Below, one piece after another: positions 14,568 to 31,514 of a DNA stretch of 64,000 nucleotides. Within the stretch, counting starts at the first letter, position 1, and every line of letters begins with the position of its first letter. The translations under genes and the position numbers were made by a program. The stretch is from Bradyrhizobium sp. CCBAU 53351 (GTDB lineage: Bacteria > Pseudomonadota > Alphaproteobacteria > Rhizobiales > Xanthobacteraceae): assembly GCF_015291745.1 (NCBI RefSeq), contig NZ_CP030059.1, positions 2,817,501-2,881,500 of the forward strand, read 5' to 3'. The notes below the pieces were generated by a model, which had not been told where the DNA came from, did no database searches, and was given only the letters and a program-made list of their open reading frames with translations.

Positions 14568-14638
14568 GGTGATCTTTCCTGGGCGATCGTTCCTGGGAAT
14601 GGTCCGCGTCGTGAGTCGCGGGGGACGCGGTGAGGCGA

Positions 14639-15283
14639 TCAATGGGAGTAGGTTTTCACCAATCCAAGGATCAGCCGAGACCATCCATCCACCGTGATGA
14701 ACAGGAACAGCTTGAACGGCAGCGAAATGGTCAACGGGCTGACCATCATCATGCCGAGTGCCAGCAGGATGTTGGTGACTATCAGATCGATGGCGAGAAA
14801 GGGAAGGTAGAGCAGGAAGCCGACTTCGAAGGCTTCACGGAGCTGGCTGACGGTGAAGGCCGGCAGGACGATCACGATGTTGTCCGCCGTCAATCCGTCG
14901 GAGAGGGTCTTGGGCCACAGCTCCCGTGCCGATTCCAGGAAAAAGGCCTTCTCGCGGCCCGAGGCATGTTTGCCGAGGAAGCGCTCCAAGGGGCCGCGGC
15001 CGGTCTCGAAGGCGAGCTTCAGGCCGTCGGCGGTTCCGTAGTTCGGCTTGGCCGTGCTGACGAGATCGTACGTCTCCATGACCACCGGCGCCATGATATA
15101 GGCCGAGAGGATCATGGCGAGTGCGTTGAGCGCGATGTTCGGCGGCACTTGCTGGACGCCGAGCGCGTTGCGGACCAGCGACAGCACCACCGAAAGCTTG
15201 ATGAAGCTCGTGGTCACCACGGCGATGAACGGCAGGAGCGCCGCGACCGCGAGGATGAGGATGAGGTTGAAAGGATCGGTCAT
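14639..15283 (-). CDS. sctR: SctR export-apparatus membrane protein
   Basis: 214 residues, the usual FliP/YscR length. It starts MTDPFNLILILAVAALLPF. Family landmarks are TSFIKLSVVLSLVRNALGVQ (about 27-46), QVPPNIALNALAMILSAYIM, and the C-terminal helices ending in LILGLVKTYSH. Five SctR subunits form the wall of the export pore. It lies 23 bases after sctQ and 71 bases before sctS. A longer frame to 15469 is rejected because it runs into sctQ and is not family-like. Confidence 0.95.
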   Translation of the reverse strand: MTDPFNLILILAVAALLPFIAVVTTSFIKLSVVLSLVRNALGVQQVPPNIALNALAMILSAYIMAPVVMETYDLVSTAKPNYGTADGLKLAFETGRGPLERFLGKHASGREKAFFLESARELWPKTLSDGLTADNIVIVLPAFTVSQLREAFEVGFLLYLPFLAIDLIVTNILLALGMMMVSPLTISLPFKLFLFITVDGWSRLILGLVKTYSH

Positions 15284-15306
15284 TGGCGCGTGATGCCGGG
15301 GGTGCG

Positions 15307-15624
15307 TTAGGCCGGAGACGACATGACGCGGGTGATGCGTACACCGATGCGTCCGTCGATGCGGATCAAATCGCCTGTCCCGATCAGTTGGCCGTTGGCG
15401 CGGATCGCGACCTCTACGCCGTTGTCGAGCGCGGGCGGATCGAGCGAGACGATGGTGCCGGGCTGCCACGCCTGCACCTGGGCGAGCGGGATGCTCATGC
15501 GGCCGATGTCGAAATCGATGATGACGCCGAGTTCGGCCATGGCCGCGACTTGCGTCTCGGCCGTGGCGGATTCCTGGTGCGGATCTTCGCCGATCCGGGG
15601 CAGGGGATCGTGGTCGTCGGACAT
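15307..15624 (-). CDS. Possible internal translation product SctQ-C
   Basis: In frame inside sctQ, the sequence ctcgagagggtgaacagc precedes ATG 15624, placing a strong purine-rich ribosome site eight bases from the start. The product would be 105 residues containing only the second SpoA domain. In the Yersinia and Salmonella homologues the C-terminal fragment is made from an internal start and forms a 1:2 complex with full-length SctQ. That this occurs here is inferred from the ribosome site and domain boundary. Confidence 0.5.
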   Translation of the reverse strand: MSDDHDPLPRIGEDPHQESATAETQVAAMAELGVIIDFDIGRMSIPLAQVQAWQPGTIVSLDPPALDNGVEVAIRANGQLIGTGDLIRIDGRIGVRITRVMSSPA

Positions 15625-16410
15625 GCTGTTCACCCTCTCGAGCAAGGATCGTCGGTAGCGCTCGGTGACTTCGTGGCCGAGGCAGACCCAGGTTTCATCG
15701 GTGCGGCGGAACGCATGCGCGCGGCCTTGCGCTCGCAGCACGATGAGGTCGGGCGGCAACTGCGGGAGCGCAATGACGTCGCCCGGTCGGAGCCCCGCCA
15801 GATCGCGGTACGTCAACCGAAGGCTTCCGAGGGTGTGGCAGGCCTCGGCCGCGAGGCTCTCCGCCAGCCCCCTGTTGACAGCCGCGGGCGCAAACGCTCT
15901 TGCCGCGACCAGTGAGCCAAACGAGGACATCGTCGCGCCGAGGGACAGCCTGACCGGCTCGGCCGCGACGCGGTCGATGCTGACCGACAACCATTGCACG
16001 CCTTCGCCGATCTGCCGGGACACGGTCTCCAGCGCGCCGCTCGCGACGATTTGCGGCCTGCCCATGTGGTTTTCGGGAATTGCATCCCAGATGGTTCGCA
16101 CGACGCCTTCCTCGATGCAGCTGCGCAGTGCAGGCGGCAGGTCACGAACGTCATGCATATCGAGATCGGCGCCAAACAGCGCCGTGAACGGGAAGGCGTC
16201 GATGATGGCCGCGAAGCGCGGACCGCCATCCGGTTGCAGCAAGAGTGCCGGCATTGCCGGATCGGGCGGATCGATCGCCGAAAACCGAAACGCCGCGGTG
16301 GAGCCGCCGTGCGACAGCGGCACGTCACGATACGACAGGATCGCGTTCCACAGCTCGTGGTCCTTGAACGCGCCTGACAATGCGGGCGGGTGCCAGTGAG
16401 CGATGGTCAT
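15307..16410 (-). CDS. sctQ: SctQ cytoplasmic sorting-platform (C-ring) protein
   Basis: 367 residues. The C-terminal SpoA/FliN-type domain (about 283-360) is clear: QVAAMAELGVIIDFDIGR, then a strand ending in LIGTGDLIRIDGRIGVRITRV. A first SpoA-like domain lies at about 185-260. SctQ forms the cytoplasmic pods of the injectisome and binds SctL and SctK. An in-frame ATG at residue 263 (15624) is preceded by GAGAGGG eight bases upstream, the same arrangement that yields the separate C-terminal YscQ-C fragment in Yersinia; here it would give 105 residues. The gene starts 36 bases after sctP. Confidence 0.88.
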   Translation of the reverse strand: MTIAHWHPPALSGAFKDHELWNAILSYRDVPLSHGGSTAAFRFSAIDPPDPAMPALLLQPDGGPRFAAIIDAFPFTALFGADLDMHDVRDLPPALRSCIEEGVVRTIWDAIPENHMGRPQIVASGALETVSRQIGEGVQWLSVSIDRVAAEPVRLSLGATMSSFGSLVAARAFAPAAVNRGLAESLAAEACHTLGSLRLTYRDLAGLRPGDVIALPQLPPDLIVLRAQGRAHAFRRTDETWVCLGHEVTERYRRSLLERVNSMSDDHDPLPRIGEDPHQESATAETQVAAMAELGVIIDFDIGRMSIPLAQVQAWQPGTIVSLDPPALDNGVEVAIRANGQLIGTGDLIRIDGRIGVRITRVMSSPA

Positions 16411-16446
16411 GGGCGTAAGGCAGCGATCATTGCGGTGGGTGAGCCG

Positions 16447-17148
16447 TCAGAGAAACAGGCTGAGCGGCGGCGACGAAGCCTCGGGCTCCCGATCAGCCGA
16501 TTCAGGACGCTTTTCGATATCGAGAATGCGGACGATCTTCTTGGACTGGCGCGTCAACAACCGGGCCGCGAGGGCCTCCGCGGCACGGACCAGCGCTTCC
16601 GAGAGTTCCGGGCCGACGCGCTCGAAGGTGACGTCCAGGGTGGTTGGCGTGACCGTGATGTAGAGCCCGGTCAGACCCAGGCCTTCGTGGGGAAAAGCTA
16701 TGGCGAGCTGCAGCGGAGTGCCGTCGCGAGGCGCCATCTCGGCACGTATCGAGCGGTCGATCGCTTCCGTCACGGCGTTCACGATCGCGTCGGTCGACGA
16801 TGTGCCGGCGGACGCGGGAGCCGCGTCGGCCGGCGTCGGCAATCCGGTCCAGCGCGGCTGCTCGGCGACGGCCACCACGCGCGGCTCCGGCATCTGCTGC
16901 TCCTGGCCATCCTGGCCCTGGGAATCGCGTTTCGACTCGCGGAGAGCGGCACGGAAGCTGCGGAGAAAGCCGGCCTCGCGGTCCGTCATCGCGTAGGACG
17001 ATCCGGTGGCGTCCTCGTCGAAGTCGAGGCATCCGCCGTCCGTCAGGTCGGCCTGAGGGCCGGTGCGTGGATCGACGCCGACATTGTTCGGCGTCATGAG
17101 CCCGTTCCCGGGCAACGCGCCGCTGCCGGGTTTGCCGACATTGATCAT
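16447..17148 (-). CDS. sctP: SctP needle-length (ruler/T3S4) protein, short version
   Basis: 233 residues from the second of two adjacent ATGs (17151 and 17148). AGGAGG lies only two bases from the first but five from the second. The first overlaps the sctO stop as ATGA. The N-terminal half is Gly/Asp/Pro-rich and unstructured; residues about 135-220 form a compact alpha/beta domain (PLQLAIAFPHEGLGLTGLYI onward) in the T3S4 position. SctP is secreted and measures the needle before SctU switches. It lies between sctO and sctQ exactly as yscP does. It is less than half the length of YscP (about 515), so the ruler would be short. Confidence 0.72.
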   Translation of the reverse strand: MINVGKPGSGALPGNGLMTPNNVGVDPRTGPQADLTDGGCLDFDEDATGSSYAMTDREAGFLRSFRAALRESKRDSQGQDGQEQQMPEPRVVAVAEQPRWTGLPTPADAAPASAGTSSTDAIVNAVTEAIDRSIRAEMAPRDGTPLQLAIAFPHEGLGLTGLYITVTPTTLDVTFERVGPELSEALVRAAEALAARLLTRQSKKIVRILDIEKRPESADREPEASSPPLSLFL

Positions 17149-17624
17149 CATGGCCTCCTGCTTCTCGAGCTGAACATGTCGTCGATCTCGATCTCTTCCC
17201 GGTAGATCGCCTCGCCGCGAACCTCGTCGCCGATCGTGTCGGTGAGGATCGAATATTTGTCGCGCTCCTTCATCGACCGGCGATGCGCGGCAACGGCGTC
17301 CTTCAATTGCCGCTCGAGGCGGGCGTGGACGTGCACGGCGCGTTCGGAGGCGTCCACCAGCCTGGCGTGCTGGCTCTCCAGCTGCCACAGCAGACCCTTG
17401 GTCTCTTCGATCTTGTCGTGGTCGATCACGCGGCCGATGATGGGTTCGTAAATGGCATCCTCGCGCTCCGGCAGCGTCCTCTCGCTGTCGCTGACATGGC
17501 TTCGCGCGCGGTCGAGCTCGGCGAGCGCGGCAGACACCTCGATGCGCTTGCTGTTCACCGCGCGCAATGCGCGGTCTTCCTTCAGCTCCTTGAGTCGTAG
17601 CAACAGCTTCAGCTGCTCGATCAT
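17148..17624 (-). CDS. sctO: SctO central stalk protein
   Basis: 158 residues, close to YscO (154). It is almost entirely charged heptad-type helix ([20 protein letters not shown], then [20 protein letters not shown]), consistent with the two-helix coiled coil of YscO/FliJ. In the family it enters the SctN hexamer and couples it to SctV. ATG 17624 overlaps the sctN TGA by four bases. A longer frame to 17807 overlaps sctN and is rejected. Confidence 0.88.
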
Positions 17625-19021
17625 GAGGTGAGCTCCGCGAGCTTGGCGAGCGTCGTTTCCATGTCGTCGAATTCGTCGGTTGCCTGCTGCAGGTACTGGT
17701 TGATCGGATCGTGCTTGTCGATCGCGAGGTCCGACTGCGGGTCCGAGCCCTTCTTGTATTCGCCGACCTTCACCAGCAACTCGATATCCGCGTAAGCTGC
17801 GAGCCAAGCGTTCACCTTGCGCGCCATGGCCGTCTGCCGTTTCGGGACGATCGTATCCATCACGCGGCTCTTGGAGTTGAGGATATCGATGGCCGGATAG
17901 TGGCTTGCCGCCGCCAGTTTTCGCGACAGGATGATATGGCCGTCGAGGATCGACCGGGTCTCGTCGGCGACGGGCTCGTTCATGTCGTCGCCCTCGACGA
18001 GGACGGTGTAGAGCGCCGTGATCGAACCGGTGTCGTTCATGCCGACGCGCTCCATCAGCTTCGGCAGCGTGGCGAAGACCGACGGCGGGAAACCACGCCG
18101 GGTCGGCGGCTCGCCGGCGGCAAGGCCGATCTCGCGCTGTGCGCGCGCGAAGCGGGTCACGGAATCCATCAGGAACAGCACCCGCTGGCCCTGGTCGCGG
18201 AAATACTCGGCGATCGCGGTGGCGACATAGGCGGCCTTGGCGCGCTCCATCGGGCTCTTGTCGGAGGTGGCGACCACCAGCACCGCCTTGGCCATGCCGT
18301 CGGGACCGAGGTCGTGCTCGATGAATTCGCGAACCTCACGCCCGCGCTCGCCGATCAATGCCAGCACCGTGACGTCGACATGGGCGCCCTTGACCATCAT
18401 GGAGAGCAGGGTGGATTTGCCGCCGCCCGCCGCGGCGAAGATCCCCATCCGCTGGCCCTCGCCGAGCGTCAACAGGGCATCGATGGCTCGCAGCCCAGTG
18501 GTGAGCGGCCGGTCGATCACCCGCCGCTTCATCGGATCGGGTGAGCCCTTGTGGACGGGATACCAGGCCTCGGGCTCGAAACGCTCGGGTCGGCCGTCGA
18601 TGAGGTTGCCGAGCCCGTCGAGCACGCGGCCCTTGAGCCCGGGACCGACTGCGACCGACTGCACGCGGCCGGTGCGGCGCACCTCGGTCCGCGGCGAGAC
18701 GCCATGAGTTTCGCCGATCGGCGACAGCAGCGCCTCCTCCTGCAGGAATCCGACGCATTCGGCGAGCAGGCTGCTGCCGGTCGACCGCGTGTAGAGCTCG
18801 ACGATTTCTCCGACCTGAACGTCCGGAACCGCGGCGTGGATGATGGTGCCGACGACTTTCCGCACCCGCCCCGTGAGATGAAACGGCTCGAATGTCGCGA
18901 TCCGCGATTGCAGGTCGGTGACGAAGCCGGCCAGCCTGGAGGTGATCCGCGCCGACCGCGCGGCACGGATCGAGGCTGCGTCGAAGGCTGCGGTGTCGTT
19001 CGAGCCTGCATATTTGTTCAC
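17621..19021 (-). CDS. sctN: SctN type III secretion ATPase
   Basis: 466 residues from GTG 19021, which overlaps the sctL TGA (GTGA). It has an F1-beta-like N-terminal barrel ([20 protein letters not shown]). A Walker A segment, [10 protein letters not shown], lies at about 195-204, more glycine-rich than the usual GVGKST. The catalytic-region motif [10 protein letters not shown] lies near 224-233, and a Walker B-like [20 protein letters not shown] follows. It ends with a helical domain containing [20 protein letters not shown]. SctN hexamers sit under the export gate, strip chaperones and unfold cargo. Confidence 0.96.
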
Positions 19022-19698
19022 GGCTGGATCTCGTTCGAAGCGTCGCTGTGGTTGCTGAGGGCGTCGAGCACATCGGCGGCGGCCTTCGCATGCGCGCTGC
19101 GGATGACCGCTTCGAGCTCGGCGAACCGCTCCGCGATGTTGCCGTCGACGCGGCCGACACCGGTCTCGAGGATGATGCGCGATCCCTGCAGCGTCGCATC
19201 CTCGACGAGGTCGACGAGCTGGACTTCCGGGAATTCGTGCAGGATGGCCGCGATGCGTCCGCGAAAATGCGCGTGCAGGGTGGGCGAAACCCGAAGCTCG
19301 GCGCTCTTCTCGCGGCGCATCTGCCGCAGCGCGGCCTTGACCAGCGCCTCGGCCCTCGCCACATCGTCGAACCCGTCGACGAGCTTGCGGACGCACTCGA
19401 CGACCAGGCGGGAAAGATCGCGCTCGATCGCGACCAGTCCCACATCGAGCGTGCGGCTCTCCTCGATGAGCTGACCGACCGATCGAATGCGCGCCTCGAC
19501 GAGACCGTCCTCGTAGCCGCGCCGCGTCTCGCTCTGATACGACAGCTCGGCGCGATGGCGCAGTTCCGCCGCCGCAGCTTCCGCATCCGCGATCAGCCGA
19601 TTGGCTTCCTCGATGGCTGCGAATTCCGATCGCGGCAGGACATGGGCACCGGCCGCGAGCGTGTAGTCGAATTCCTTCAATCGATAATAGCCGACCAC
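19018..19698 (-). CDS. sctL: SctL stator protein of the ATPase complex
   Basis: 226 residues from GTG 19698, preceded by GGAGAC. A TTG at 19740 would extend it deeper into sctK. The N-terminus ([26 protein letters not shown]) is followed by a long Ala/Glu/Arg helix and a C-terminal globular domain with [23 protein letters not shown]. That last stretch is the FliH/YscL signature in which Gly-x-x-(I/L)-E-T-x-x-G is conserved. SctL dimers link SctN to SctQ and restrain the ATPase. It overlaps sctK by 22 bases and sctN by four. Confidence 0.92.
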
Positions 19699-20477
19699 GA
19701 TTGCTGTCTCCGGCGCACGATCTTCACGATCTGATCGCAATGGATTGTCTCGAATCGTCCAACGGCGCTGGCGCGCGCGGCATAATCGGTTGCCGGCGGC
19801 AGGCGGAGCGCAAACGGCCCGGCGAGCGAGGGCTCGGTGGCGTCGAGAAACCTGCCGAGCGCGGACATCCCGAGCTGCTCGATCTGTCCGATATCACTGT
19901 GCTCCTCGGCCGGCCGTACCGGCTCATCGCGGGGCGTCAGGTCGAGCTCGCACAGTGCAGGATAGAGCACCGGGACTTCCTGGATGGCGAATTCGAAGAC
20001 GCCGTCGCCGAGTGCATCGCGGATCCGCTTGCGATCGACCTTCATGACCGTGCCACGGATTTTCCGGGACAGGATAGCGGCTGCCAGCAGCCTTGCCACG
20101 TGCGTCACCTCGACCATCGGAGCCGTCAGGATAGCGACCGGGAGGCGAGAGGATGGCGCCCGGCGCAGGCGGCTGAGCATCGGCTCGTCGATTGAAACCG
20201 CATCGAAACCGATCCGGCCGGCGACGACGCGGTTGATCGGCGCCCGAAACGCCCGATGATCGGCCATGGCGCCGATCATGTCGGGATCAAAAGGATGGAG
20301 CGCGCGGTGGAACGGATCGATGTAGTCGATCGGACGGCGCAGCAGCGATGCGAGGCGCACGGCCAATTCCAGCATTCTGCCGTCGGCGCGCGGATCCGCT
20401 GTCGGGGGAATGTCGGTGAGCGGAGGCCGCGCCGGGTCGGGGAGCTCCGCGGCTCGCGCTGCCAGGACCGATGTCAC
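19677..20477 (-). CDS. sctK: SctK sorting-platform adaptor protein
   Basis: 266 residues from GTG 20477, which overlaps the sctJ TGA as GTGA with GGAG upstream; a longer GTG start at 20549 is less likely. No membrane helix is seen. The sequence is divergent, as SctK proteins are, but order (J-K-L) and length fit (YscK about 209). Visible stretches include [20 protein letters not shown] and [20 protein letters not shown]. SctK connects the inner-membrane ring protein SctD to SctQ and the pods. Assignment depends largely on position. Confidence 0.8.
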
Positions 20478-21289
20478 GACGGCTCCACCATGGCCATTGC
20501 CGTTGCTGGTGATCGGGCGCTCCGTTCGTGCCGGCGGCTGCGCCACCACGACAGCAGGGAGATCACGCTATGGGCGAGCAGAACGACGAGCAGGGCAGCA
20601 GCTCCCGAGGCGACCTGCCAGAAACGGGCCTGGCTGCCTTCGAGGACGCTCAGACCGGGAAGAACCTCGATGGTCCGGGGCCGATCGGCCGGTCCTGCCG
20701 TGCTCAGCTTGGTCGGCGCCGCGTCCATCAGCACGACGGTGACAGCCGAGTAGTCCAGGCCCTCGACGGCGCTCGAAACCAATCGGCGGATTTGCGGCTG
20801 GAAGAAATCGAGGTCGACGCCGGGCTGGTGCTTGATGAAGACCGCCGCGGAGGAGGGCTTGACCGGTTGACCGAGGGTCGGAGAATCCGGAAGCACGATA
20901 TGGACCCGCGCCGAGACGACGCCGTCGATCTGGCTCAACGTCTGCGACACCTCGGCGCCGAGCGCATTGATGTAGCGGACCCGCTCCTCGAACGGTGTCG
21001 ACATTATGCCGGTCTTCTCGAACGCCTTTGCGAGCGACACGTAGCTGCTCTTCGGATAGCCGGCGTCCTTGAGCAGCGCTATTGCGCGCAACATGTCGCG
21101 CTGGTCGACCGAGATGGCGAAGCCGTCCTTGCTTCCCTTGGAGGCCTTGTCCACCGCGATGCCGTTGGCCGTGAGGACGGCGAGCATCTGGTTGGCGTCG
21201 GCTTCGGAAAGATTGGAATAGACTTCCTGCTGGCACCCCGCGAGCACGAGCGTAGCTAGAACGATCAAAGCCCTGATACGCAGGCCCAT
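20474..21289 (-). CDS. sctJ: SctJ inner-membrane ring lipoprotein
   Basis: 271 residues. A lipoprotein signal (MGLRIRALIVLATLVLAGC, lipobox LAGC, Cys19) is followed by two ring-building domains. Family landmarks are LYSNLSEADANQM-like sequence (here VYSNLSEADANQMLAVL), then DQRDMLRAIALLKDAGYP, then GVVSARVHIVLPDS. A C-terminal membrane helix lies at about 228-250, ending SLLSWWRSRRHER. SctJ forms the inner ring with SctD. It is 49 bases after sctI and overlaps sctK by four bases. Confidence 0.96.
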   Translation of the reverse strand: MGLRIRALIVLATLVLAGCQQEVYSNLSEADANQMLAVLTANGIAVDKASKGSKDGFAISVDQRDMLRAIALLKDAGYPKSSYVSLAKAFEKTGIMSTPFEERVRYINALGAEVSQTLSQIDGVVSARVHIVLPDSPTLGQPVKPSSAAVFIKHQPGVDLDFFQPQIRRLVSSAVEGLDYSAVTVVLMDAAPTKLSTAGPADRPRTIEVLPGLSVLEGSQARFWQVASGAAALLVVLLAHSVISLLSWWRSRRHERSARSPATAMAMVEPS

Positions 21290-21338
21290 GCGGGCGGCTC
21301 CGCTTGCTGTGAGTCCTGGAAGCGACTGTCGTTGGCCG

Positions 21339-21827
21339 TCATTGCCCCTTGAGCAGGGACTCGAGCGCCTGTGTCGACTTTCCGGTCAGCTTCGAGGTGA
21401 CGTCGACGAGCACGGAGAACTTTGCGACTTCCATCTGCATGGAGAGCAGCGTGTTGGTGTCGGCCGCCCGCACTGAGGAGAGATTGTTGATGCGGGCCTC
21501 CTGCTTGTCGAACACGCCGCGCAGATTCTGCAGGCCATGCAGGATCGTGTCGCCTTGAGGCGCCGTCTTCGGCGGATTGAGGTTCAGTGCGCGGCGCGCG
21601 CGCTCCTGCGCGTCCGCGGTGGTGCTGCTATTGGCAGCGACCTTTACCTCGGGGGGACGCGTCGCGGTCGTGCTGTCGAGGGACGATGAGGTGGTGGCGG
21701 ACCTGTCCGTCGCGGTTCTTTCCATCGCGGCGGAAAACCGCTGGCCAGCTGCTTCGCTTGCTTCGAGCCGTCCGACCTTTGGGGTGCCCGCCTGTCGCGC
21801 AAAATCCGTCAAGCCAATGCTAGCCAC
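21339..21827 (-). CDS. sctI: SctI inner-rod protein
   Basis: 162 residues from GTG 21827, with GGGAGAG six bases upstream. The C-terminus LLSMQMEVAKFSVLVDVTSK followed by a short terminal helix is the YscI/PrgJ rod signature (MQ-x-x-V-x-x-x-S-V-x-V-D-x-x-x-K). The N-terminal 90 residues are Ser/Thr/Ala-rich, longer than in YscI (115). SctI joins the export gate to the needle base and is exported early. It is the first gene of the sctI-U operon, so its promoter should lie in 21828-22087. Confidence 0.9.
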   Translation of the reverse strand: MASIGLTDFARQAGTPKVGRLEASEAAGQRFSAAMERTATDRSATTSSSLDSTTATRPPEVKVAANSSTTADAQERARRALNLNPPKTAPQGDTILHGLQNLRGVFDKQEARINNLSSVRAADTNTLLSMQMEVAKFSVLVDVTSKLTGKSTQALESLLKGQ

Positions 21828-22087
21828 GAGCCACTCTCCCGAAATAAAAAATCAAAGTACGGGCGATCCAGTGAAAGCCCCTTGTGGGTACGGGCTTATC
21901 ACCAAAAATTCCGCCCAACATCCGTCGATCGAATGACGCGTCGTTGAATCGTCGATCAGCTTTTCGCGATGACGCGTGTGCTGCACAGTTCCATTCGAGA
22001 GATGCATGCCCTGTAACCTGCGGCACACGTCGCTGGCGATCGGGTTGATACCGTCGATAGGAAAACGGTTCGCCGAAGGAGAGGACG
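21828..22087. promoter_or_regulatory. Divergent promoter region sctI / sctW with direct repeats
   Basis: These 260 bases separate the 12-gene sctI operon from sctW. They hold two direct repeats, CGTCGATC at 21923-21930 and 21950-21957, and ATGACGCGT at 21933-21941 and 21969-21977. Between the second copies lies TCAGCTTTTCG (21956-21966), which matches the conserved left half of the rhizobial tts box (TCAGCTTnTCG). The right half does not match. An A/T-rich run at 21840-21856 is a plausible promoter element for sctI. Confidence 0.45.
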
Positions 22088-23401
22088 TTGGCAGTATCGG
22101 TCGAGACGGTTCGGCAGTCGATCGCCGCCGAGAACGCCAACTCGCCGGTTGGAACCGGGCTGATGGCCGAGCGGCAGGGCAGCTATCGCAGTGAAGCCGT
22201 ACGGCCGACGCTCGAGAACGCGGTGATCACCAAGGCCGCGGCGCAGGGTGCTGGGGTGATGACGGCGGTGCGCACCAACGTCCAGGACCTGGCGCGCCGA
22301 GTCCAGCAGGACCCGCCGGTGACGACGGCGTCTCTCTATGAGACGCTGGCCGAATTGCCCGAGATCGACAAGACGGCGTTGCCGCGCATGTTCGAATTTA
22401 TCGACGGCCTTGCGGAATTGGCCGGCGGCGATACCGCGCACGAGCACCTAGCCGAGGACAGCGAGCCGGTTGAAGGCGCTGATGCGCTTGCGGAGCAGGA
22501 GGCGGCGCAGGTCGACAGTGAGCGCGTCCGCACCATCGGTGACCGCGAAGGCAGCCGCGGTGGCGGCGACGGCGAGGGGCAGGCGCGGGACGAAGAGGAT
22601 CTGGAGAGCAAGCTCACGCAGGCGCTCGGCAAGTTCGGCAGCACCACCGACAAGGCCACGGCCGTGGCGTTGGCGCGCGGCTATTTCGAGTCCAGGGGCG
22701 CGAACCCGCTCTTCCTCAACATGCTGAGCCTGCTGTCGGCCAAGCTGGACGGTATCGTCCCGCAGGCCACATTGGCGCAGGTGATTGCGGCGCAGGAAGC
22801 CCTGCTTGCAGCGGAATCGCTTGAAACGAGCCCCGCCGCAGTCCGCAGGCGGTACCGCAAGAGACTTCGCGAGAGGAAAAATCTCGGCGAATTGTTCGAG
22901 GAGCTCGTCGAGATCGGGTTGGAGAGCAGCCTGTCGGCGCTGCTCACCGAGATCGGGAGCGATCTCGCCGGCGTGACCAGGCAGAGCGATCGAGCTTTTC
23001 TGCGCTCGCTGACCTCCGAACTGAAGAAGCTCTGGCAGCTGAGGAGCGCGTGGGAAGACACGCGCGAGATGTTGCGCCTGACCGAGCCGCATCTGCCGCG
23101 CGTCGAATGGCGTCCCGAGCCGGTCAAGCTGACGTTGGTGCTGCTGTTGTTCTGTGCGAAGCCCGTGGTCGGTCCGTCCGACTCGCGTGCTCTGCTTGGT
23201 CCAGTCGCCAACGCGGCGCTCGCAAGCCAGGTGGTGTTTGCCAACGGCCTGATGGATCTGCACAGCAGATTGCCCGATGGAATCTGGTCCAATGCCAAGG
23301 AACGGATGCTGCAGCATCTGTCACTTGGCGCATTGTGCCAACGGCTCACCGAGGAAGAGGAGCGCCTTTATGAAGAGGCCAGCGGCGCGTCGGCGGCATA
23401 A
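22088..23401 (+). CDS. sctW: SctW gatekeeper (YopN/HrpJ family)
   Basis: 437 residues from TTG 22088, with AAGGAG eight bases upstream. Early residues are polar. The HrpJ/YopN-type helical domains are visible (SLYETLAELPEIDKTALPRM; ANPLFLNMLSLLSAKLDGIVP; NLGELFEELVEIGLESSLSA). A highly acidic Gly/Glu/Arg linker lies at about 135-180. The C-terminal 90 residues may replace TyeA. SctW plugs the export gate and imposes translocators-before-effectors order. It is followed after six bases by the SycN-like chaperone gene, as yopN is near sycN. Confidence 0.82.
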   Translation: MAVSVETVRQSIAAENANSPVGTGLMAERQGSYRSEAVRPTLENAVITKAAAQGAGVMTAVRTNVQDLARRVQQDPPVTTASLYETLAELPEIDKTALPRMFEFIDGLAELAGGDTAHEHLAEDSEPVEGADALAEQEAAQVDSERVRTIGDREGSRGGGDGEGQARDEEDLESKLTQALGKFGSTTDKATAVALARGYFESRGANPLFLNMLSLLSAKLDGIVPQATLAQVIAAQEALLAAESLETSPAAVRRRYRKRLRERKNLGELFEELVEIGLESSLSALLTEIGSDLAGVTRQSDRAFLRSLTSELKKLWQLRSAWEDTREMLRLTEPHLPRVEWRPEPVKLTLVLLLFCAKPVVGPSDSRALLGPVANAALASQVVFANGLMDLHSRLPDGIWSNAKERMLQHLSLGALCQRLTEEEERLYEEASGASAA

Positions 23402-23407
23402 AGCGAG

Positions 23408-23788
23408 ATGGCCCAGCTTTCCGTGATGGCGCGGCGGGTCATCGAGACCTTTGCCGGGAATGCCGGAATTGTCGCCCAGGCGGCTCCGGATTTCAGCTAC
23501 GGATTCGAGTTCGCCGAGCGGGGAACGCTGTCGATCGTGGCGGCGGAGGACGGCCAGCGGATCATCGTCTGCCTATCGCGCAGGCCGCGCCGCGCGGGTT
23601 CATCCGTGCTGAAGGATCTGCTCGACATTGCCGGCTACGATCCCTTCAGCGGAGCCATGGTCCATGCGGGATTGGCGCTGGATGGCGCACTCGCGCTCGC
23701 GATCGACATGGACGAGCCGCGCTTCGATCTGCAATCGCTCGACGAGGCGCTGTCGCGGCTCGACGAACTCCATCGCTCGATCTCGTGA
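23408..23788 (+). CDS. SycN-like class I T3SS chaperone
   Basis: 126 residues, acidic, without signal or membrane helix. The strand pattern ERGTLSIVAAEDGQRIIVCL corresponds to SycN (QSGTLQLEQHGATLTLWL). It ends in a helical LDEALSRLDELHRSIS, like the SycN tail. SycN (123 residues) with YscB chaperones YopN; here the gene follows sctW by six bases. A YscB partner was not recognised, so a homodimer or an unidentified partner is possible. Confidence 0.68.
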   Translation: MAQLSVMARRVIETFAGNAGIVAQAAPDFSYGFEFAERGTLSIVAAEDGQRIIVCLSRRPRRAGSSVLKDLLDIAGYDPFSGAMVHAGLALDGALALAIDMDEPRFDLQSLDEALSRLDELHRSIS

Positions 23789-24238: not shown

Positions 24239-26572
24239 ATGATACGTGCAGGGCGCTCTGCCGTTGCGACAGTCGCGGCGCTGATCCCGGCCGCATTTCT
24301 GGTGTCGGGCTGTGCGTTCCTGAACGCCGATAGCTGTGCGGATCGCGCCAACCTTCCGCCGGACCAGCTCGAATTCAGGGGCTGCAACGGCGGTGTGCTG
24401 TCGGCCGAGACGACGCGGGAAACTGTCTATCGCGGCGATGACAGCTCGCGGCTTTGGACGGGGCCCGAAGTGCGGCGCGGCGCCAATGTTGACCCAAGCA
24501 GGGTCAACCAGCCGCCGGCGTCGCGTTCGCCGATCTCGGCCTGGTCTGGCTCTCTGAAGATAGAGGTTCCCTCGGAAGAGGAGGTGACCAGCAAGGATGC
24601 TGCGGAGATCCGGTCGGCGGGAGGCAACAAGTTCGATCCCGACGAGAAGGTCACGGTGAAGTTCGAGAAGGCGTCGCTCGCCTTCTTCCTGAAGCAGATG
24701 CTGGGCGGTGCGCTCGGCGTCAACTATGTCGCGCCGGACGATATGACGGGGTCGGTGACGTTCCGCACCGAGCAGCCGATCTCCAAGAACCAGGTGCTGC
24801 AAGTCGTGCGCGACGTGCTCGGCCGCAACGGCCTCGAGATGCGTTACATGAACGGCGTGTACCAGATCGCGACCTCGGAGGCGATGACCGGGCTGCAGCA
24901 GACCGTGGCGCCCGGACGAGCCACCGATCAGACGACCCGCGTGCTGCGGCTGCGCAAGGGCAGCGCCAATGAGGTCATCGCCTTCGTGCGGCAGCTGGTG
25001 CCAGAGGAGATCACGATGGTCCCCGCAAGCGGCGGTGCCTCGATCGTGGTGAAGGCACCGGCGACCGAGCTCGACAAGATCGCGGAGCTCGTGAGCATCT
25101 CCGACAGCAGCCTCGGCGACGATCGCGTCGCCATCGTTCCCCTGAGCCAGAGCTCGCCGGAGAAGATAGCTCAGCAGCTCGGGGAATTCTATCGTGCGCA
25201 GGCGCAGGCCGCGACCATCGTTCCGCTCGACAACCAGCAGGCGCTGTTGATCGGCGCCAAGGACAGGAGGGCGCTGCAGGGCCTGAAGGAGCTGATCCGG
25301 CGTCTCGATCGCGACACCGGCGGTGATCTGGCGATGCGCATCATTCCCTTGATCCATCTCGGTGCCGACGAGATCGTGCCGCAACTGACGGCGATCTACG
25401 CCGCGAGCGGCGGCGTTGCGGCTGCGGCCGCCGCGCCAGCGGCGGCGCCCGTGGCCGCGAGCGCGCAACCGGGCCAGGCCGCGGCGTCCGCTCCGTCGGC
25501 GGCCCCGGTGCCTCCGGTCCAGGTGCCCCGCGGCGTCGCGCCCGAAGAAGGCGGCTTCAGCAGCCCCGGTTTTGCGCTCGGGGGCGGCGCATCGCCGCCG
25601 GCAGGCGGTGCGGCGCCTTCGGGCAATGGCAGCACCGCTGCCGCCATCGCGTCCAGCCTCATCGGCCAGGCGCCGGTCGCCGTCGCGGTGGCTGGAGCGC
25701 CGCCCGTGAAGTTCGTCGCCGACACGCGCAGCAACGCCGTGATGGTCTATTCGTCCTATTCCTTCTTCAAGCTGATCAGGGATCGGTTGAAGGTGCTCGA
25801 CGTGCCGCAGGCGCAGGTGGTGATCGAGGCGACGGTCGCGGAAGTGACGTTGAACGATACCCTGGCTCGTGGCGTCGAGGCGTTTCTCAGCGGAAAGGGA
25901 TTGGAGGTCGGCTCGACGCCGCACGGCGCGGTCACCGCGAACCAGGGCGGAGGGTATGTTCGTGCGAAATTCGGGGTACAGGGTGCGACGGTCGATGTGG
26001 TCCTGCGGGCCTTGCAATTGGTGACCAATGTGAAGGTCATCTCGACGCCATACCTGACCGTCGTCGACGGCAAGACCGCGCGCCTCGTCATCGGCGACCA
26101 GATTCCGTTCTCGTCCTCGACGGCGACCGCACAGCTCAACACCGGCACCACCGTGACCCAGCAGATCACGGTCAAGGACACCGGAATCGTTCTGGAAGTC
26201 ACGCCAAAGATCCGGGCCGACAGTTCGGCGTTGTTGACGATCGACCAGCAGGTCAGTGACGCGGTGCCGAACGACACGACAGGCGGATTGACGCCGACGA
26301 TCAAGACCCGGCAGGTGAAGTCGGACATCATGGTGCAGTCGGGCGCCACAGTCATGCTGGCAGGGCTGATGCAGGAAAGCGTCGATCGAACCGAGACTGG
26401 CATTCCGGTGGTTCGCAAGGTTCCGGTGCTCGGTGAGCTATTCAAGCAATCGGAGGAACGCGCGGTCCGCCGCGAGCTGATCGTCCTGATCACGCCGCGG
26501 GTGATCCGGGCCTCGAACCAGATCGAGAACATCACGCGCCAACTGCGCGGAGCGATGCGCATCCGCGAATGA
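24239..26572 (+). CDS. sctC: SctC outer-membrane secretin, GspD-like lipoprotein
   Basis: 777 residues from ATG 24239, AAGGA 12 bases upstream. The signal ends in LVSGC with Cys25 as lipid site. N0 (about 130-205, KVTVKFEKASLAFFLKQML), N1 (225-285), N2 (290-365) and N3 (370-545) domains follow; N3 is interrupted by an Ala/Pro-rich insert of about 110 residues. The secretin core begins near 580 and includes KVISTPYLTVVDGKTARLVI, VPVLGELF and ELIVLITPRVI. This domain series and VPVLG-x-LF resemble GspD rather than YscC (607 residues, no lipobox). It is the only secretin gene in the cluster, so it is taken as SctC. Lipidation could let it reach the outer membrane without a pilotin. Confidence 0.85.
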   Translation: MIRAGRSAVATVAALIPAAFLVSGCAFLNADSCADRANLPPDQLEFRGCNGGVLSAETTRETVYRGDDSSRLWTGPEVRRGANVDPSRVNQPPASRSPISAWSGSLKIEVPSEEEVTSKDAAEIRSAGGNKFDPDEKVTVKFEKASLAFFLKQMLGGALGVNYVAPDDMTGSVTFRTEQPISKNQVLQVVRDVLGRNGLEMRYMNGVYQIATSEAMTGLQQTVAPGRATDQTTRVLRLRKGSANEVIAFVRQLVPEEITMVPASGGASIVVKAPATELDKIAELVSISDSSLGDDRVAIVPLSQSSPEKIAQQLGEFYRAQAQAATIVPLDNQQALLIGAKDRRALQGLKELIRRLDRDTGGDLAMRIIPLIHLGADEIVPQLTAIYAASGGVAAAAAAPAAAPVAASAQPGQAAASAPSAAPVPPVQVPRGVAPEEGGFSSPGFALGGGASPPAGGAAPSGNGSTAAAIASSLIGQAPVAVAVAGAPPVKFVADTRSNAVMVYSSYSFFKLIRDRLKVLDVPQAQVVIEATVAEVTLNDTLARGVEAFLSGKGLEVGSTPHGAVTANQGGGYVRAKFGVQGATVDVVLRALQLVTNVKVISTPYLTVVDGKTARLVIGDQIPFSSSTATAQLNTGTTVTQQITVKDTGIVLEVTPKIRADSSALLTIDQQVSDAVPNDTTGGLTPTIKTRQVKSDIMVQSGATVMLAGLMQESVDRTETGIPVVRKVPVLGELFKQSEERAVRRELIVLITPRVIRASNQIENITRQLRGAMRIRE

Positions 26573-26616: not shown

Positions 26617-26874
26617 TCAGAATCGGAACGAATAAATGCTCTCCTCGCGCAAATGCGCGAGGGTGCTGAACAGCAGGGAGCGCTCCTCGACCCGCGCTTC
26701 GTGGGATCGCCTCGCGTGATTGTCGAGATAGCTCTCGAATTTGTGCGCGGCTTCGACCTGTTTCTTCGTCTCCAGCGGCGAGCCGAGCGGCAGCGGGTCT
26801 CGGCCGCCCGCCTCGGTCTGAAAGCGCGGCAGGGGAGCGGCGGTGCGCTGAATGGGATCGCTGTCGAAGGGCAT
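26617..26874 (-). CDS. Small polar protein at the end of the sctV-ExbB/D-like operon
   Basis: 85 residues from ATG 26874; GGAGACAGCC immediately precedes the start. It is polar and charged, Pro-rich at the start, with a helical middle (ETKKQVEAAHKFESYLDNHA) and EERSLLFSTLAHLREESI near the end. No signal peptide or membrane helix. It begins 18 bases after the second ExbD-like gene and is convergent with sctC. Unrecognised; a cytoplasmic partner of the membrane module is one possibility. Confidence 0.5.
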   Translation of the reverse strand: MPFDSDPIQRTAAPLPRFQTEAGGRDPLPLGSPLETKKQVEAAHKFESYLDNHARRSHEARVEERSLLFSTLAHLREESIYSFRF

Positions 26875-26892
26875 GGCTGTCTCCGTGTCTCG

Positions 26893-27657
26893 CTACGTCG
26901 TGGCGGCCGACAATGCCCGGCGTCGGCAGAATTCCACCCAGATGATGAAGATCAGCCCGCCCAGGATGACGATCGCGTTGAGGGCCGCCCGTGACCAGCG
27001 CGCGATTCGATCGCCGGTGCTGCTCGGCTGCATCTGGTCGCCTGCGGCCTTGAACGCCCGTGCGGCTGCCTCGTCGCCGCCCGACTGGAGCAGCCGGGCA
27101 AGTCCATGGCGGAACCGCGCGCGATCGGAGGGCCTCGAGACCAATCCCATGAAATCGTCAGACCAGCCGTGGTCGCTTGTCACCGAGCTGCTCTTGAGCG
27201 CCTGCGGCACCGACATTTCGCGCCAGCTCGCGCCCGATGCCTCAAGGGCCGCGAGCACAGCCCGGTAGAAGCGTGGACTGAACACATAGAGCCCGATGGA
27301 AACCTTACGCGGCGCGATCAGACGAGCGAGGCGCGGCGTGACATCGTCGGCGAGGCCGAGACGTGCGGTCCGGCCCTGCGATGTCACGACGATCCCCTGG
27401 TTGAGCAGGTCGATGCGGATCGAGTCCGAGTCCTGACGGCGTTCGTACAGAAGGTCGAAGAGATCCTCGCTGCCAAGCGGTGTGCGGTCGACACTGACGA
27501 GATCGTTCTCCACGTCGATGGGCGAAAGGGCCGTCGCGGGGGAACCCGGTGATCCCGGCCGGGCGCCGAGCAGCAGGATGAGAACGAGCAGCAACAATGC
27601 GAACAAATTCGCGGCAATGTCGGTCAGGGCGGATAGGCCGGCCGGCGCGGATTTCAT
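26893..27657 (-). CDS. ExbD/MotB-position membrane protein 2
   Basis: 254 residues from ATG 27657, which overlaps the previous stop by four bases (ATGA). A short cytoplasmic start precedes a membrane helix, ALTDIAANLFALLLLVLILL (about 10-29), with Asp13 at its cytoplasmic edge, the position of the proton-carrying Asp in ExbD/TolR/MotB. A periplasmic domain of about 190 residues follows. A second hydrophobic helix lies near the C-terminus (about 226-245, ALNAIVILGGLIFIIWVEF), which ordinary ExbD proteins lack. ExbD-like role is inferred from helix plus Asp and from the ExbB-like gene two positions upstream. Confidence 0.55.
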   Translation of the reverse strand: MKSAPAGLSALTDIAANLFALLLLVLILLLGARPGSPGSPATALSPIDVENDLVSVDRTPLGSEDLFDLLYERRQDSDSIRIDLLNQGIVVTSQGRTARLGLADDVTPRLARLIAPRKVSIGLYVFSPRFYRAVLAALEASGASWREMSVPQALKSSSVTSDHGWSDDFMGLVSRPSDRARFRHGLARLLQSGGDEAAARAFKAAGDQMQPSSTGDRIARWSRAALNAIVILGGLIFIIWVEFCRRRALSAATT

Positions 27658-28169
27658 CGAACTTGCTCGCTTGGAAGAGGCGGCCGCCGCGCGCAGTGTA
27701 GCGCGATGGTTCGTTCGCAACCGGAATCCAGCCGCACCTGGCGTATGCGCCGAATTCCATGCCGGCTCGCGATCACCTCGAGCTGAAACGCTGCTTCGCT
27801 GCCGCCCGGCGCGATGAACAACACCAGCGGTTCGCTGGTGCGCTGCATCCCCTGCAATGTCGCGGCCAGGGTCTGGTCGAGGAACATGCGGTCCAGCGGG
27901 ATCAGAGTTGTCGGGGGAGCGTCGATCGCAAGACCGGCTGCGGTGGCCAGCCAGGGTGTCACGCGGCGCCCATCCAGTTGAAACTCGACCTCCGCCTCCG
28001 CCGTCGATGCGTCTCGCTGCGGCAGGCTGGGCAGGATGGCGAGGACCGCTAACACGATGATGGCTGCGACGCTGAGCAGGAGATCCGCCAGCGGGTCGCC
28101 CGCCAGCACTGGATCGAATTCCTCGTGATCGGGCATGACGGCCCCGAGGATCCCGGGCGGGTTGGTCAT
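27654..28169 (-). CDS. ExbD/TolR-like membrane protein 1
   Basis: 171 residues from ATG 28169, overlapping the ExbB-like stop by four bases. The one membrane helix at about 26-48 is preceded by GDPLADLLLSVAAIIVLAVL; this resembles the ExbD stretch TPFIDVMLVLL, so Asp29 would be the proton-carrying residue. The periplasmic part (about 50-171) alternates strands and helices (RRVTPWLATAAGLAI; EPLVLFIAPGGSEAAFQLEVI), as in ExbD/TolR, and contains two cysteines near its end. Family assignment is from this pattern; a profile search would settle it. Confidence 0.65.
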   Translation of the reverse strand: MTNPPGILGAVMPDHEEFDPVLAGDPLADLLLSVAAIIVLAVLAILPSLPQRDASTAEAEVEFQLDGRRVTPWLATAAGLAIDAPPTTLIPLDRMFLDQTLAATLQGMQRTSEPLVLFIAPGGSEAAFQLEVIASRHGIRRIRQVRLDSGCERTIALHCARRPPLPSEQVR

Positions 28170-29323
28170 CGGGCCTCCCGTGTCTTGTCCACGATCAGCA
28201 TGCACATCGCGGCCAGTTCGGTTTCCCGCTTCTCGAGCAGACCGAGGGCGAGCGAGCAGATGATGCTTGCGATCAAGCCGAGCAGCGTGGTCTCGAATTT
28301 GACCGCGAGCCCGGCGAGGCTCGCGGAAATGTCGATATTGTGGCCCGACGAAGCGTTCAGATCATGGGGGAGGTCCGATATCGCGCTTGCGAGGCCAATC
28401 ACCGTACCGAGAAAGCCGAGCAGCGGCAGAAGCGGCAGCAGCGACCGCACGAACTGGCGTGACGCCCACTGGAAACGATCGAAAGACAGCGCCGTCAGGC
28501 GCGACGGACCTGCAACCTCCGCTCCCGCGCCATCGATCGCGGCATTCAGCAACCGGACCGCGCGGGTGTGAGCGGCCGGGGCGAGCTGCCGGGTGAGGAT
28601 GGCGGAGAGATCGACGCGGCGACCATTGCCGCGCTCGGCCTCGATCGTGCGGCTGAAGCCGGCGATCACCCTTCTGTCGGCGATGTGCAAGGACGCGGCG
28701 TCGACGATCGAGGCCATCACGACAAGGAACAGGAAGACGATGGCGCTGTGCACGATGGTCCGTCCGAGCACGGCGGACACGACGACGGACTGCACCTGTC
28801 CGGAGCCGGGAGCGAAGAGGTGAGGTATCACCAGATAGAACAGGAGGATGAGGAAGCAGGCGAGGGCGACCGGCGCCGCGGCCGACTGCATCTCGACCGG
28901 TCCGGTCCGGTCGAGCGGCCGTAGCCAGAAGCGCGCGAAAGCGAGGTGGCTTTCGCTCGCCAATGCACGGCTTGCCATCAGCGTCACGAGAAGCTGAGGC
29001 CAGACGGGAAAGCGGGCGACGAGGGCGACGAGCGGTTCGCCGGCCGACACGGCCTCCACCAGGAACGGAAACAGCAGCGCGTGGATCGTTCCAGCCACGA
29101 GGCCGCCGCGCAGCCACCGGTGGTGGATCTTCCATGCGCCGAAGCCGGTCGTGACGAGCACCGCAGCAGCAACCACGGGCCAGTGCTCGAAGCCGCCCGA
29201 GCCAAGATAAAGCAGGTAGGAAACGATGAAGCCGATGCTGTAGATGCGCACCCGCCAATGTTCGACGCGAAGCCTTGTATCGACCTGGCCGGCCGGCCCT
29301 GCGGTGGCGGCGGTCGAGGTCAC
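28166..29323 (-). CDS. MotA/TolQ/ExbB-family proton-channel-like membrane protein
   Basis: 385 residues from GTG 29323, which overlaps the sctV TGA (GTGA). About seven hydrophobic segments are present. The C-terminal 100 residues carry the family pattern: LLPLLPLLGFLGTVIGLASA (about 295-314), a loop, then ASLAGLAVKFETTLLGLIAS (about 334-353), comparable to the MotA/ExbB helices with conserved Gly and the TT-x-x-G-L turn. The N-terminal 150 residues add further helices not seen in ExbB. It is translated with sctV upstream and two ExbD-like proteins downstream, so a PMF-using complex attached to the T3SS is likely. The function itself is inferred. Confidence 0.72.
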   Translation of the reverse strand: MTSTAATAGPAGQVDTRLRVEHWRVRIYSIGFIVSYLLYLGSGGFEHWPVVAAAVLVTTGFGAWKIHHRWLRGGLVAGTIHALLFPFLVEAVSAGEPLVALVARFPVWPQLLVTLMASRALASESHLAFARFWLRPLDRTGPVEMQSAAAPVALACFLILLFYLVIPHLFAPGSGQVQSVVVSAVLGRTIVHSAIVFLFLVVMASIVDAASLHIADRRVIAGFSRTIEAERGNGRRVDLSAILTRQLAPAAHTRAVRLLNAAIDGAGAEVAGPSRLTALSFDRFQWASRQFVRSLLPLLPLLGFLGTVIGLASAISDLPHDLNASSGHNIDISASLAGLAVKFETTLLGLIASIICSLALGLLEKRETELAAMCMLIVDKTREAR

Positions 29324-31446
29324 GCGGCGGAGAGCTGGTTGACGAGCTTGATTCTCTCCAGCGGCTGCACGTTCGAGCTCGGCTCGAGCTCCTGATAGGA
29401 CAGCACGGTCAGATCGGGAAAGTCGCGCTCGATGACCTTGCGCATGAAACGGCGGATATCCATCGGCGCGAGCAGAACGGGCGACAGGCCGTGCTGGCCG
29501 GAACTGCGGATCACGTTCTTCATCGAGGCGATGAGCTGGCGATGGATGTCGGGCGCGAGCGCCAGATAGGAGGCGCCACTGGTCTGCCGGACGGCGCCGC
29601 GCACGGCGTCCTCGATCTCCTTCGACAGCAGGTAGGCGGGGATGATGTTCTGGCCGCCCGAGAACTTGTGGGTGATGTAGCGGGACATGGCGCCGCGCAT
29701 GTGCTCGACGAGGATGATGGGATCCTTTTCGCGCTGCCCCCACTCGACCAGCCCTTCGAGGATGGTGCGCATGTCGCGGATCGAGATCTGCTCCATGACG
29801 AGCCGCTGCAGAACGTCGGTGATGGTGATGACCGGCAGGACGCGCGTGGCCTCGCGCACGAGCTCGGCGAAATTGTCCTCCATCTGGTTCATTAGGTACA
29901 TGGTCTCCTGAATGCCGATGAACTCCGACGCGTGGCTCTTCAGCACGTGAGCCAGGTGATAGGTCAGCATGCTGGAGGGCGTCATGACCTGCATGCCGGC
30001 ACGCTCGACCAGCGGCAGATGCTTCATCTGAACCCAGTAGCTGGGCGTGTTCGGCAGAAAGTCCTCGCCGCGTTCGAATGGAATCTCGAACATGTTGAGG
30101 TTTTCCTCCGTCTCGCGAACGATGAACCAGTTCGGCTGCAGCATGCCCGCGGCCACCGGAATCTCGTTCACCAGGATGCGGTATTGGCCCTCGCGCAGAT
30201 TGTCGTTGAGGCGGAGGTGAACGCCGGGGAACGGCACGCCGAGATCGAAATAGAGCGCCCGGCGCACGCGCGCCACCTCGCGGTCGAGCTTGTTCGGACG
30301 GATCGAGTTGCGCACCGCGGAGGAGAGGTCGACGATCAGGGGAACGACGAGGGTGAATTTCACGTTCTCGATCGGCTCGTTGTCCTCGGCATCCTCCTTC
30401 GGAAAGGAGGGGACGTCGCCACCGGAGAGGGCCGCCGCGAGCGCCGGCATTTCCTGCGTGCGCTGGTCGGACAAATTGCGCTTGCGGGCGCGCGCGGTCA
30501 GAATGCCGGCGCCGGCGCAGGCCATCGACAAGGCGATGAAGACGATCGGCGGGAAGCCGGGCACGATGGCGAAAATACCGAGGATGCCGGCCGTGATCAT
30601 CAGGGCCTTGGGCTCGTTCATGAGCTGGGAGGCGATGTCGGTGCCGAGATCCTTGTTCTCCTCGGAGGAGACGCGGGTGACGATGAAGCCGGCTGTGATC
30701 GAGATGAACAGCGCCGGAATCTGCGAGACCAGGCCGTCGCCGATGGTGAGGAGCGAGTAGCGCTCCAGCGCCTCGGCGGCCGTCATGCCGTGCTGCAGCG
30801 TCCCGATAGCGATGCCGCCGATGAGGTTGATGGCGATGATGATGAGGCCGGCTATGGCGTCGCCCTTGACGAATTTCATGGCGCCGTCCATGGCGCCGTA
30901 GAGCTGACTTTCCTTCTCGAGCTTATTGCGCCGGCGCTTCGCCTCGCCGAGCTCGATCTGGCCTCCGCGCATGTCAGAATCGATCGACATCTGCTTGCCG
31001 GGCATCGAATCGAGCGAGAACCGTGCGGACACCTCCGCAACCCGTTCGGATCCCTTGGTAATGACCATGAAATTGACGATGGTCAGGATCAGGAACACCA
31101 CGAGGCCGACGACGAGATTGCCCGCGACGACGAACTGGCCGAACGTTTCGACGATGTGGCCGGCGTCGGCCTGGATCAGGATGAGGCGGGTCGTGGAGAT
31201 TGCCAGCGCGAGACGAAACAGCGTGGTGAGTAGCAGGATCGAGGGAAACGAGGACAGTTCGACCACGTTCTGAAGATAGACCGAGGCCATCAGCAGGATC
31301 GCCGCGAGCGTCAGGTTGATGCCGATCAGGAGATCGATCACCTGCGTCGGCAGCGGCAGGATCATCATGAAGACGATGCAGACCAGCATGAATGCCAGCA
31401 TCAGGTCGTTTCGCTTGGAGATCGTTCGCAGGAAACCGGTCAGCAT
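29320..31446 (-). CDS. sctV: SctV major export-gate protein
   Basis: 708 residues from ATG 31446 (GAGGAA upstream; a TTG two codons earlier is possible). Eight membrane helices occupy the first half. The conserved FHIPEP-family loop is present (SARFSLDSMPGKQMSIDSDM, about 120-140; then AMDGAMKFVKGDAIAGL). A large cytoplasmic domain of about 350 residues follows. SctV nonamers receive substrate-chaperone complexes and, in the flagellar homologue, conduct protons. Uniquely here the gene is coupled by a GTGA overlap to an ExbB-like gene downstream. Confidence 0.96.
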   Translation of the reverse strand: MLTGFLRTISKRNDLMLAFMLVCIVFMMILPLPTQVIDLLIGINLTLAAILLMASVYLQNVVELSSFPSILLLTTLFRLALAISTTRLILIQADAGHIVETFGQFVVAGNLVVGLVVFLILTIVNFMVITKGSERVAEVSARFSLDSMPGKQMSIDSDMRGGQIELGEAKRRRNKLEKESQLYGAMDGAMKFVKGDAIAGLIIIAINLIGGIAIGTLQHGMTAAEALERYSLLTIGDGLVSQIPALFISITAGFIVTRVSSEENKDLGTDIASQLMNEPKALMITAGILGIFAIVPGFPPIVFIALSMACAGAGILTARARKRNLSDQRTQEMPALAAALSGGDVPSFPKEDAEDNEPIENVKFTLVVPLIVDLSSAVRNSIRPNKLDREVARVRRALYFDLGVPFPGVHLRLNDNLREGQYRILVNEIPVAAGMLQPNWFIVRETEENLNMFEIPFERGEDFLPNTPSYWVQMKHLPLVERAGMQVMTPSSMLTYHLAHVLKSHASEFIGIQETMYLMNQMEDNFAELVREATRVLPVITITDVLQRLVMEQISIRDMRTILEGLVEWGQREKDPIILVEHMRGAMSRYITHKFSGGQNIIPAYLLSKEIEDAVRGAVRQTSGASYLALAPDIHRQLIASMKNVIRSSGQHGLSPVLLAPMDIRRFMRKVIERDFPDLTVLSYQELEPSSNVQPLERIKLVNQLSAA

Positions 31447-31514
31447 GTTCAATTCCTCGTATCGTCTTGCGGCGGTCGCGGCGGCAAGCCCGCCTCTCGG
31501 CTCGCGCGGACGGG

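Follow-up and report, generated by a model that had tools for sequence, protein, structure and literature searches.

Introduction

The closest described counterparts of the gene trio reported here, which lies directly behind sctV in a type III secretion system (T3SS) cluster of Bradyrhizobium sp. CCBAU 53351, are ion-channel motors of the bacterial envelope. The gliding motor AglRQS of Myxococcus xanthus is described as one MotA-like and two MotB-like subunits with a conserved Asp each (PMC9389320), and a content of one MotA-like and two TolR-like subunits is also found in the trio at the level of genes; AglRQS, however, drives gliding, and the passages on it in that review make no tie to a T3SS. 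SiiAB, encoded in a type I secretion locus of Salmonella, is a proposed MotAB-like proton channel controlling the substrate (PMC6272769), but it consists of two genes and serves type I secretion, and the likeness is one of architecture alone. GldLM, a proton-gradient motor powering protein secretion by the type IX system (PMC8986121), is comparable by description only, being a Bacteroidetes system in which the key residues are glutamates of GldL. The DNA analysed here, hereafter the window, is a stretch of 64,000 nt (assembly GCF_015291745.1, contig NZ_CP030059.1, positions 2,817,501-2,881,500, forward strand) from a genome of 8.3 Mb in 2 contigs, 99.99% complete.

The available portions of a review of 5:2 motors (PMC9389320) and of a 2025 survey of MotAB relatives (PMC12505986) contain neither "type III" nor "injectisome". 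A 2025 study of TolA and TonB lists flagellar, gliding, Zorya, type I secretion (SiiAB), Tol and Ton motors (PMC12204202), and its available text names type III secretion only for its abolition by tol-pal loss in two enteric bacteria (Hirakawa 2020, cited therein). Likewise, the titles and abstract openings of open-licence PMC papers, a search that leaves most subscription journals and bioRxiv outside, describe no T3SS with an ExbB/ExbD/TolQ module, in agreement with an initial annotation of this locus, which knew of none. The rhizobial T3SSs of Rhizobium gallicum pRGM101a and Bradyrhizobium japonicum p2S06B have an SctV 51-52% identical to that of the window, but sctV is followed there by sctD or an FHA-domain gene, and the module is missing.

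Results

The motor-like trio (motA-like, exbD1-like and exbD2-like; Table 1) sits within a cluster whose identity as a T3SS is given by SctV together with core export, ring, ATPase, secretin and needle genes. The genes sctV, motA-like, the two partners and an 85-residue open reading frame (ORF), x85, are all open at the positions initially annotated, and the identity of sctV was borne out by the SctV model. The successive 4-base overlaps claimed for this group were seen at all three junctions from sctV to exbD2-like: sctV/motA-like (29320-29323), motA-like/exbD1-like (28166-28169) and exbD1-like/exbD2-like (27654-27657). The start of x85 follows 18 bases past exbD2-like.

The channel subunit matches PF01618 (MotA_ExbB) over residues 291-369 with 32.3 bits, above the cut-off of 22.9, so the profile check confirmed the C-terminal MotA/TolQ/ExbB pattern reported earlier. 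A six-frame MotA_ExbB search of the whole genome gave 8 matches, with the motA-like gene among them, and four of the five T3SS-linked relatives given to Pfam also passed the cut-off, the fifth (L134) lying just under it at 20.8 bits. The window's channel protein (P0001) and SctV (P0005) served as search queries. With the former, 101 proteins including itself were found at E <=0.01 in the protein database, where the best 7,998 candidates were scored. In an alignment of P0001 with 27 relatives, invariant columns include G303, G306, T307, V308, G310, F343, T345, T346, L348, G349 and L350. G303, G306, T307, V308 and G310 are identical in all 11 T3SS loci at a mean identity of 35%; T345, L348, G349 and L350 are identical in the 10 of 10 loci with letters at those positions, and T346 is replaced by Ser in two of the more distant ones. 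Among these residues are the G-T and T positions of the channel helices, which we take to be defining for the MotA/TolQ/ExbB family.

A home-made Kyte-Doolittle hydropathy scan gave seven membrane segments in the motA-like protein, as initially claimed, with a count that depends on the threshold (six in another scan), and 6-8 segments in each of its relatives. An ExbB-type layout can be read from the same scan, with a helix at residues 189-207, a long cytoplasmic part, a helix at 294-312 and a segment within 334-363, and with about 86 residues between the would-be ExbB helices 1 and 2; the last three helices were assigned on the assumption that the ExbB helix layout applies. Profile, residues and layout support the assignment of the protein to the MotA/TolQ/ExbB family, with three last helices that appear ExbB-spaced and extra helices at the N-terminus. 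A sequence search of the PDB gave nothing convincing, the best result for the channel profile being MotA (6ysl) at E 0.35. An affiliation with Zorya defence was considered and rejected, as ZorA matches only across the shared channel motif (best E 5.6e-05) and the partners not at all. P0001 had no match in the plasmid search.

In both partners an Asp stands at the start of a membrane helix, Asp29 in exbD1-like and Asp13 in exbD2-like, as the initial annotation had located them, and it is invariant in 33 of 33 and 21 of 21 alignment rows, respectively. The description of both as single-anchor proteins holds for exbD1-like, which has one helix, but not for exbD2-like, which has two. The expected ExbD profile match failed to appear, as neither protein matches PF02472 (ExbD/TolR) in the Pfam search, and hhalign comparisons of both with ExbD stayed at the level of shuffled controls or little above (the 30 ExbD rows were used without L183, a wrong row, and the exbD1 alignment without the fragments P0141 and P0142). 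For these reasons the proteins are named ExbD-like, and not members of the ExbD family. Aligned with each other, exbD1 and exbD2 scored 27.6 (E 0.0033, probability 9.7%), mainly across the Asp helix. In regard to structure, TolR was ranked first for the separate models of both proteins in a second look with VIA-align, and Foldseek returned no ExbD/TolR for these models among its best 50 rows. The models support an ExbD/TolR-like periplasmic fold that both partners may carry. In one genome (G856), the exbD2 relative (L138 6806-7132) has only 108 residues, with both helices and the Asp kept and the periplasmic domain lost.

In regard to its distribution, the module was followed through genomes with an SctV of this family, defined by E <=1e-200 with P0005. 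Such an SctV was found in at least 14 of 397 genomes of an order sample, in at least 7 of 397 of one family (two of them already counted) and in 4 of 15 of another family (all already counted), giving 19 genomes; Bradyrhizobium sp. Y36 and Aureimonas sp. AU4, with SctV 98.7% and 75% identical to the window's, were reached via the channel protein and bring the number to 21. As they were recruited in this way, these two carry the module by choice. Counts in the Bradyrhizobium, class, order and 397-genome family surveys are lower bounds, with 7, 4, 2 and 2 candidates scored per genome, respectively.

The module is present in 14 genomes (the window's own, Y36, AU4, G868, G849, G750, G715, G856, G899, G963, G1065, G1064, G1029 and G1096), and in every one of them the channel gene stands directly behind sctV, a linkage that persists across several Hyphomicrobiales families. 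Both partners were seen in 13; the contig of G899 breaks off within the channel gene. The SctV match in one of these genomes (G1064:C7:367151-369268) was counted with one in-frame TGA, yet a 716-residue open frame exists there. Genome-wide, the module was not found in G913, G922, G997, G985, G962 and G1030, and the trio profiles had no match in the stretches read around their T3SSs. One weak channel match in G922 (E 7.9e-4, residues 17-88) lies on another contig, and the genome was counted as lacking the module. G870, 82% complete, has no match elsewhere and a contig that ends in sctV, and was left unjudged. Among the 19 genomes found by SctV, 12 carry the module, six do not and one is unjudgeable. 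Co-occurrence with this sctV holds in 14 of 20 judgeable genomes and fails in six. The T3SSs without the module are full-looking clusters, each with a needle relative, in G913 and G1030, and partial core sets in the other four, which belong to one family; related loci with an apparently intact T3SS and no trio, which the initial annotation had named as evidence against itself, do exist.

In broader samples, a full-length channel protein was found in at least 2 of 265 Bradyrhizobium genomes, both times at this T3SS, a third match being short and weak. At least 28 of 385 genomes in the class sample match the channel alignment; the window's own match is the only strong one, with the next best at E 6.9e-15, and the presence of a T3SS was checked for part of these matches. 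A MotA/ExbB gene joined by two small ExbD-like genes is also seen at loci away from a T3SS. In G525 (L146 9384-11622), a channel gene is followed by two small genes with, by eye, a similar motif of an Asp at the helix start; neither gene is matched by the exbD1 and exbD2 profiles (E up to 0.5), and the 19.9 kb read hold no match to the window's T3SS genes. At other loci of this kind, the channel gene is accompanied by a pair of ExbD-like genes, and the place of TonB is taken by a third small membrane gene.

On an IQ-TREE phylogeny of sctV with 23 rows, the presence and absence of the module, counted without G870, need three changes. G1030, which lacks it, is sister to G1065, which has it (support 100/100), and G913, also without it, is nested in the 16-row main clade (100/99). 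The simplest reading is one gain with two losses, but a single gain is unproven, as the deep forks are weak (38/47 and 55/85). Since G913 and G1030 keep the T3SS without the trio, the motor genes appear to be gained and lost together. Across 10 loci (G1065, G1064, G1096 and the cut-off G899 left out), mean identity is 35% for motA-like, 32% for exbD1 and 33% for exbD2 (9 loci), compared to 78% for SctV, and the distances of motA-like and SctV correlate (Spearman 0.73, Mantel p 0.004, 10 loci). The module genes and sctV are under purifying selection, mostly looser in the module: between the window and Y36, Ka/Ks is 0.22 for motA-like, 0.42 for exbD1, 0.31 for exbD2, 0.13 for x85 and 0.03 for sctV, and for the pair G750 and G715, the trio has values of 0.23, 0.06 and 0.16 and sctV again 0.03. 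The arrangement is not a matter of chance, as shown by the channel gene behind sctV in 14 genomes and by Ka/Ks below 0.5 for every gene compared in these two pairs of close relatives.

The fourth gene, x85, was initially included in the module, and this part of the proposal did not hold. A small ORF follows the module in all 12 loci looked at (10 were aligned, the distant ones being weakly alike), and in G913 (L137), which lacks the three motor genes, sctV is followed directly by an x85 relative. The gene therefore travels with sctV rather than with the motor, and apparently stands apart from the latter. It has no family match in Pfam or NCBIfam and no membrane helix by hydropathy, so no TonB- or TolA-like gene follows the trio. 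A role of x85 as needle subunit was ruled out, as it has no needle match and a better SctF is present in the window.

Table 1. Genes of the coupled group and of the surrounding T3SS cluster in the window
Feature	Position	Strand	Description and basis
sctV	29320-31452	minus	export-gate subunit, first gene of the coupled group; TIGR01399 911 bits (cut-off 692), Pfam FHIPEP 764 bits
motA-like	28166-29323	minus	putative MotA/TolQ/ExbB-type channel subunit, 385 aa, GTG start; PF01618, hydropathy, conserved channel residues
exbD1-like	27654-28169	minus	171 aa; one membrane helix (26-48), invariant Asp29, ExbD/TolR-like periplasmic domain (model)
exbD2-like	26893-27657	minus	254 aa; membrane helix with invariant Asp13, ExbD/TolR-like domain (model), second C-terminal membrane helix
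x85	26617-26874	minus	85-residue ORF of no assigned function, adjoining exbD2-like; apparently outside the motor
sctC	24239-26572	plus	GspD-like secretin, tail to tail with the module; Pfam Secretin 137 bits
sctD, U, T, S, R, Q, O, N, L, K, J, I, W and SycN-like chaperone	7904-23788		core genes; NCBIfam matches (sctO and sctK by position)
sctF	6039-6377	minus	needle subunit; PF09392 37.8 bits (cut-off 29.4), TIGR02105 24.7 bits (below cut-off of 41.7)

As for the remaining genes of the cluster, the NCBIfam cut-off is passed by SctV, N, J, R, S, T, U and I, and the Pfam cut-off by SctF; SctQ, L, D, W and the SycN-like chaperone have NCBIfam matches below cut-off, and sctO and sctK, with no NCBIfam match in the window, are named from gene position alone. 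SctF has a long N-terminal extension and lies distant from sctI, and its relatives occur in 6 of 13 other clusters compared. The secretin scores 339 bits with TIGR02517 (type II GspD) against 77 bits with TIGR02516 (T3SS SctC), both below their own cut-offs, and is encoded by one undivided gene, whereas the secretin gene of classical rhizobial T3SSs is described as split (PMC3459982). At two other loci (L011 11929-15244 and L141 13808-17517), a large protein that is a relative of the window's ORF at 2671-4473 is present in tandem copies; it may be a secreted or translocator protein.

Discussion

The trio resembles MotA/TolQ/ExbB and ExbD/TolR pairs in the channel motif of its last two helices, the spacing of about 86 residues, the Asp that opens the partner helix and, putatively, the TolR/ExbD-like periplasmic fold suggested by the models. 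It differs from ExbB/ExbD in about four extra N-terminal helices, the missing PF02472 match and the second helix of exbD2, and from ExbBD-TonB/TolA in that no TonB or TolA gene adjoins and that it is encoded with SctV. The reading preferred here, to which a probability of about 0.58 is given, is that the trio is an ion-channel motor of the ExbB/ExbD type, made together with SctV, and an optional accessory of the T3SS acting from the periplasmic side. MotA/ExbB-type subunits with extra N-terminal helices, co-produced with SctV, would be arranged as a ring, with the axle at its centre made up of two different ExbD-like proteins that offer one Asp for protons each. Proton flow past Asp29 and Asp13 would turn or shift this axle, and the TolR/ExbD-like domains could then exert force on the injectisome at its periplasmic, cell-wall or secretin side, assisting or gating secretion much as GldLM serves the type IX system. 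Service to the T3SS is suggested by the overlap with sctV and by the constant position in 14 of 14 genomes, and a periplasmic site of action by the TolR/ExbD-like domains modelled in both partners.

That sctV is the only T3SS gene overlapped by the module, and that the distances of module and sctV run in parallel, could also indicate that the channel passes proton energy directly to SctV and the SctRST gate. However, G913 and G1030 have full-looking T3SSs with an SctV of this family and no module, and four more genomes of one family lack it as well, and such a direct power unit is considered improbable. To our knowledge, the T3SSs known so far export without such genes, which also counts against it. 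The initial proposal of a proton-driven motor or coupling unit owned by this injectisome is sustained in regard to the channel family, the Asp residues and the linkage to sctV; a necessary energy unit of export is unsupported, as 6 of 20 judgeable genomes have this SctV family without the module. That close relatives do without the trio speaks against its being obligatory for powering SctV, and in favour of an optional role as booster, gate or sensor.

The last of these, a proton channel that times secretion or substrate retention as a sensor or switch and produces no force, would agree with the optional presence, the fast divergence and the truncated exbD2 of G856. One proposed model for it is SiiAB, which is described as controlling whether SiiE is retained or released, with the proton motive force as a possible input that it uses or senses (PMC6272769). 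Both partners in the window, however, keep a TolR/ExbD-like domain in the models, suited to a force-bearing contact, and a pure switch is considered unlikely. Alternatively, the trio could be a general envelope motor of the Tol, Ton or Agl kind, which serves another system or aids the T3SS only through the envelope. Similar trios away from T3SSs, such as that in G525, would fit this, and the tol-pal effect mentioned above implies that a T3SS can be influenced by an envelope motor that is no part of it. Against this stand the unbroken position of the channel gene behind sctV and the Bradyrhizobium genomes, where both full-length channel proteins lie at this T3SS; this reading is considered improbable.

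A more far-reaching version of the preferred reading, an accessory motor of the ExbB/ExbD type, can be put forward tentatively, at somewhat less than even odds: a T3SS family with a dedicated rotary proton motor, built of an ExbB-type ring and a heterodimeric ExbD-type axle, which was gained early in a Hyphomicrobiales T3SS lineage and mechanically drives or gates injection. If the motor is real, ExbB/MotA-type motors would be extended to the T3SS, as a further secretion class served by them besides those of GldLM (type IX) and SiiAB (type I), and a heteromeric motor with two Asp residues would become available for study. A T3SS family that occurs with and without a dedicated proton channel in close relatives, such as G1065 and G1030, offers a natural comparison of what the channel contributes.
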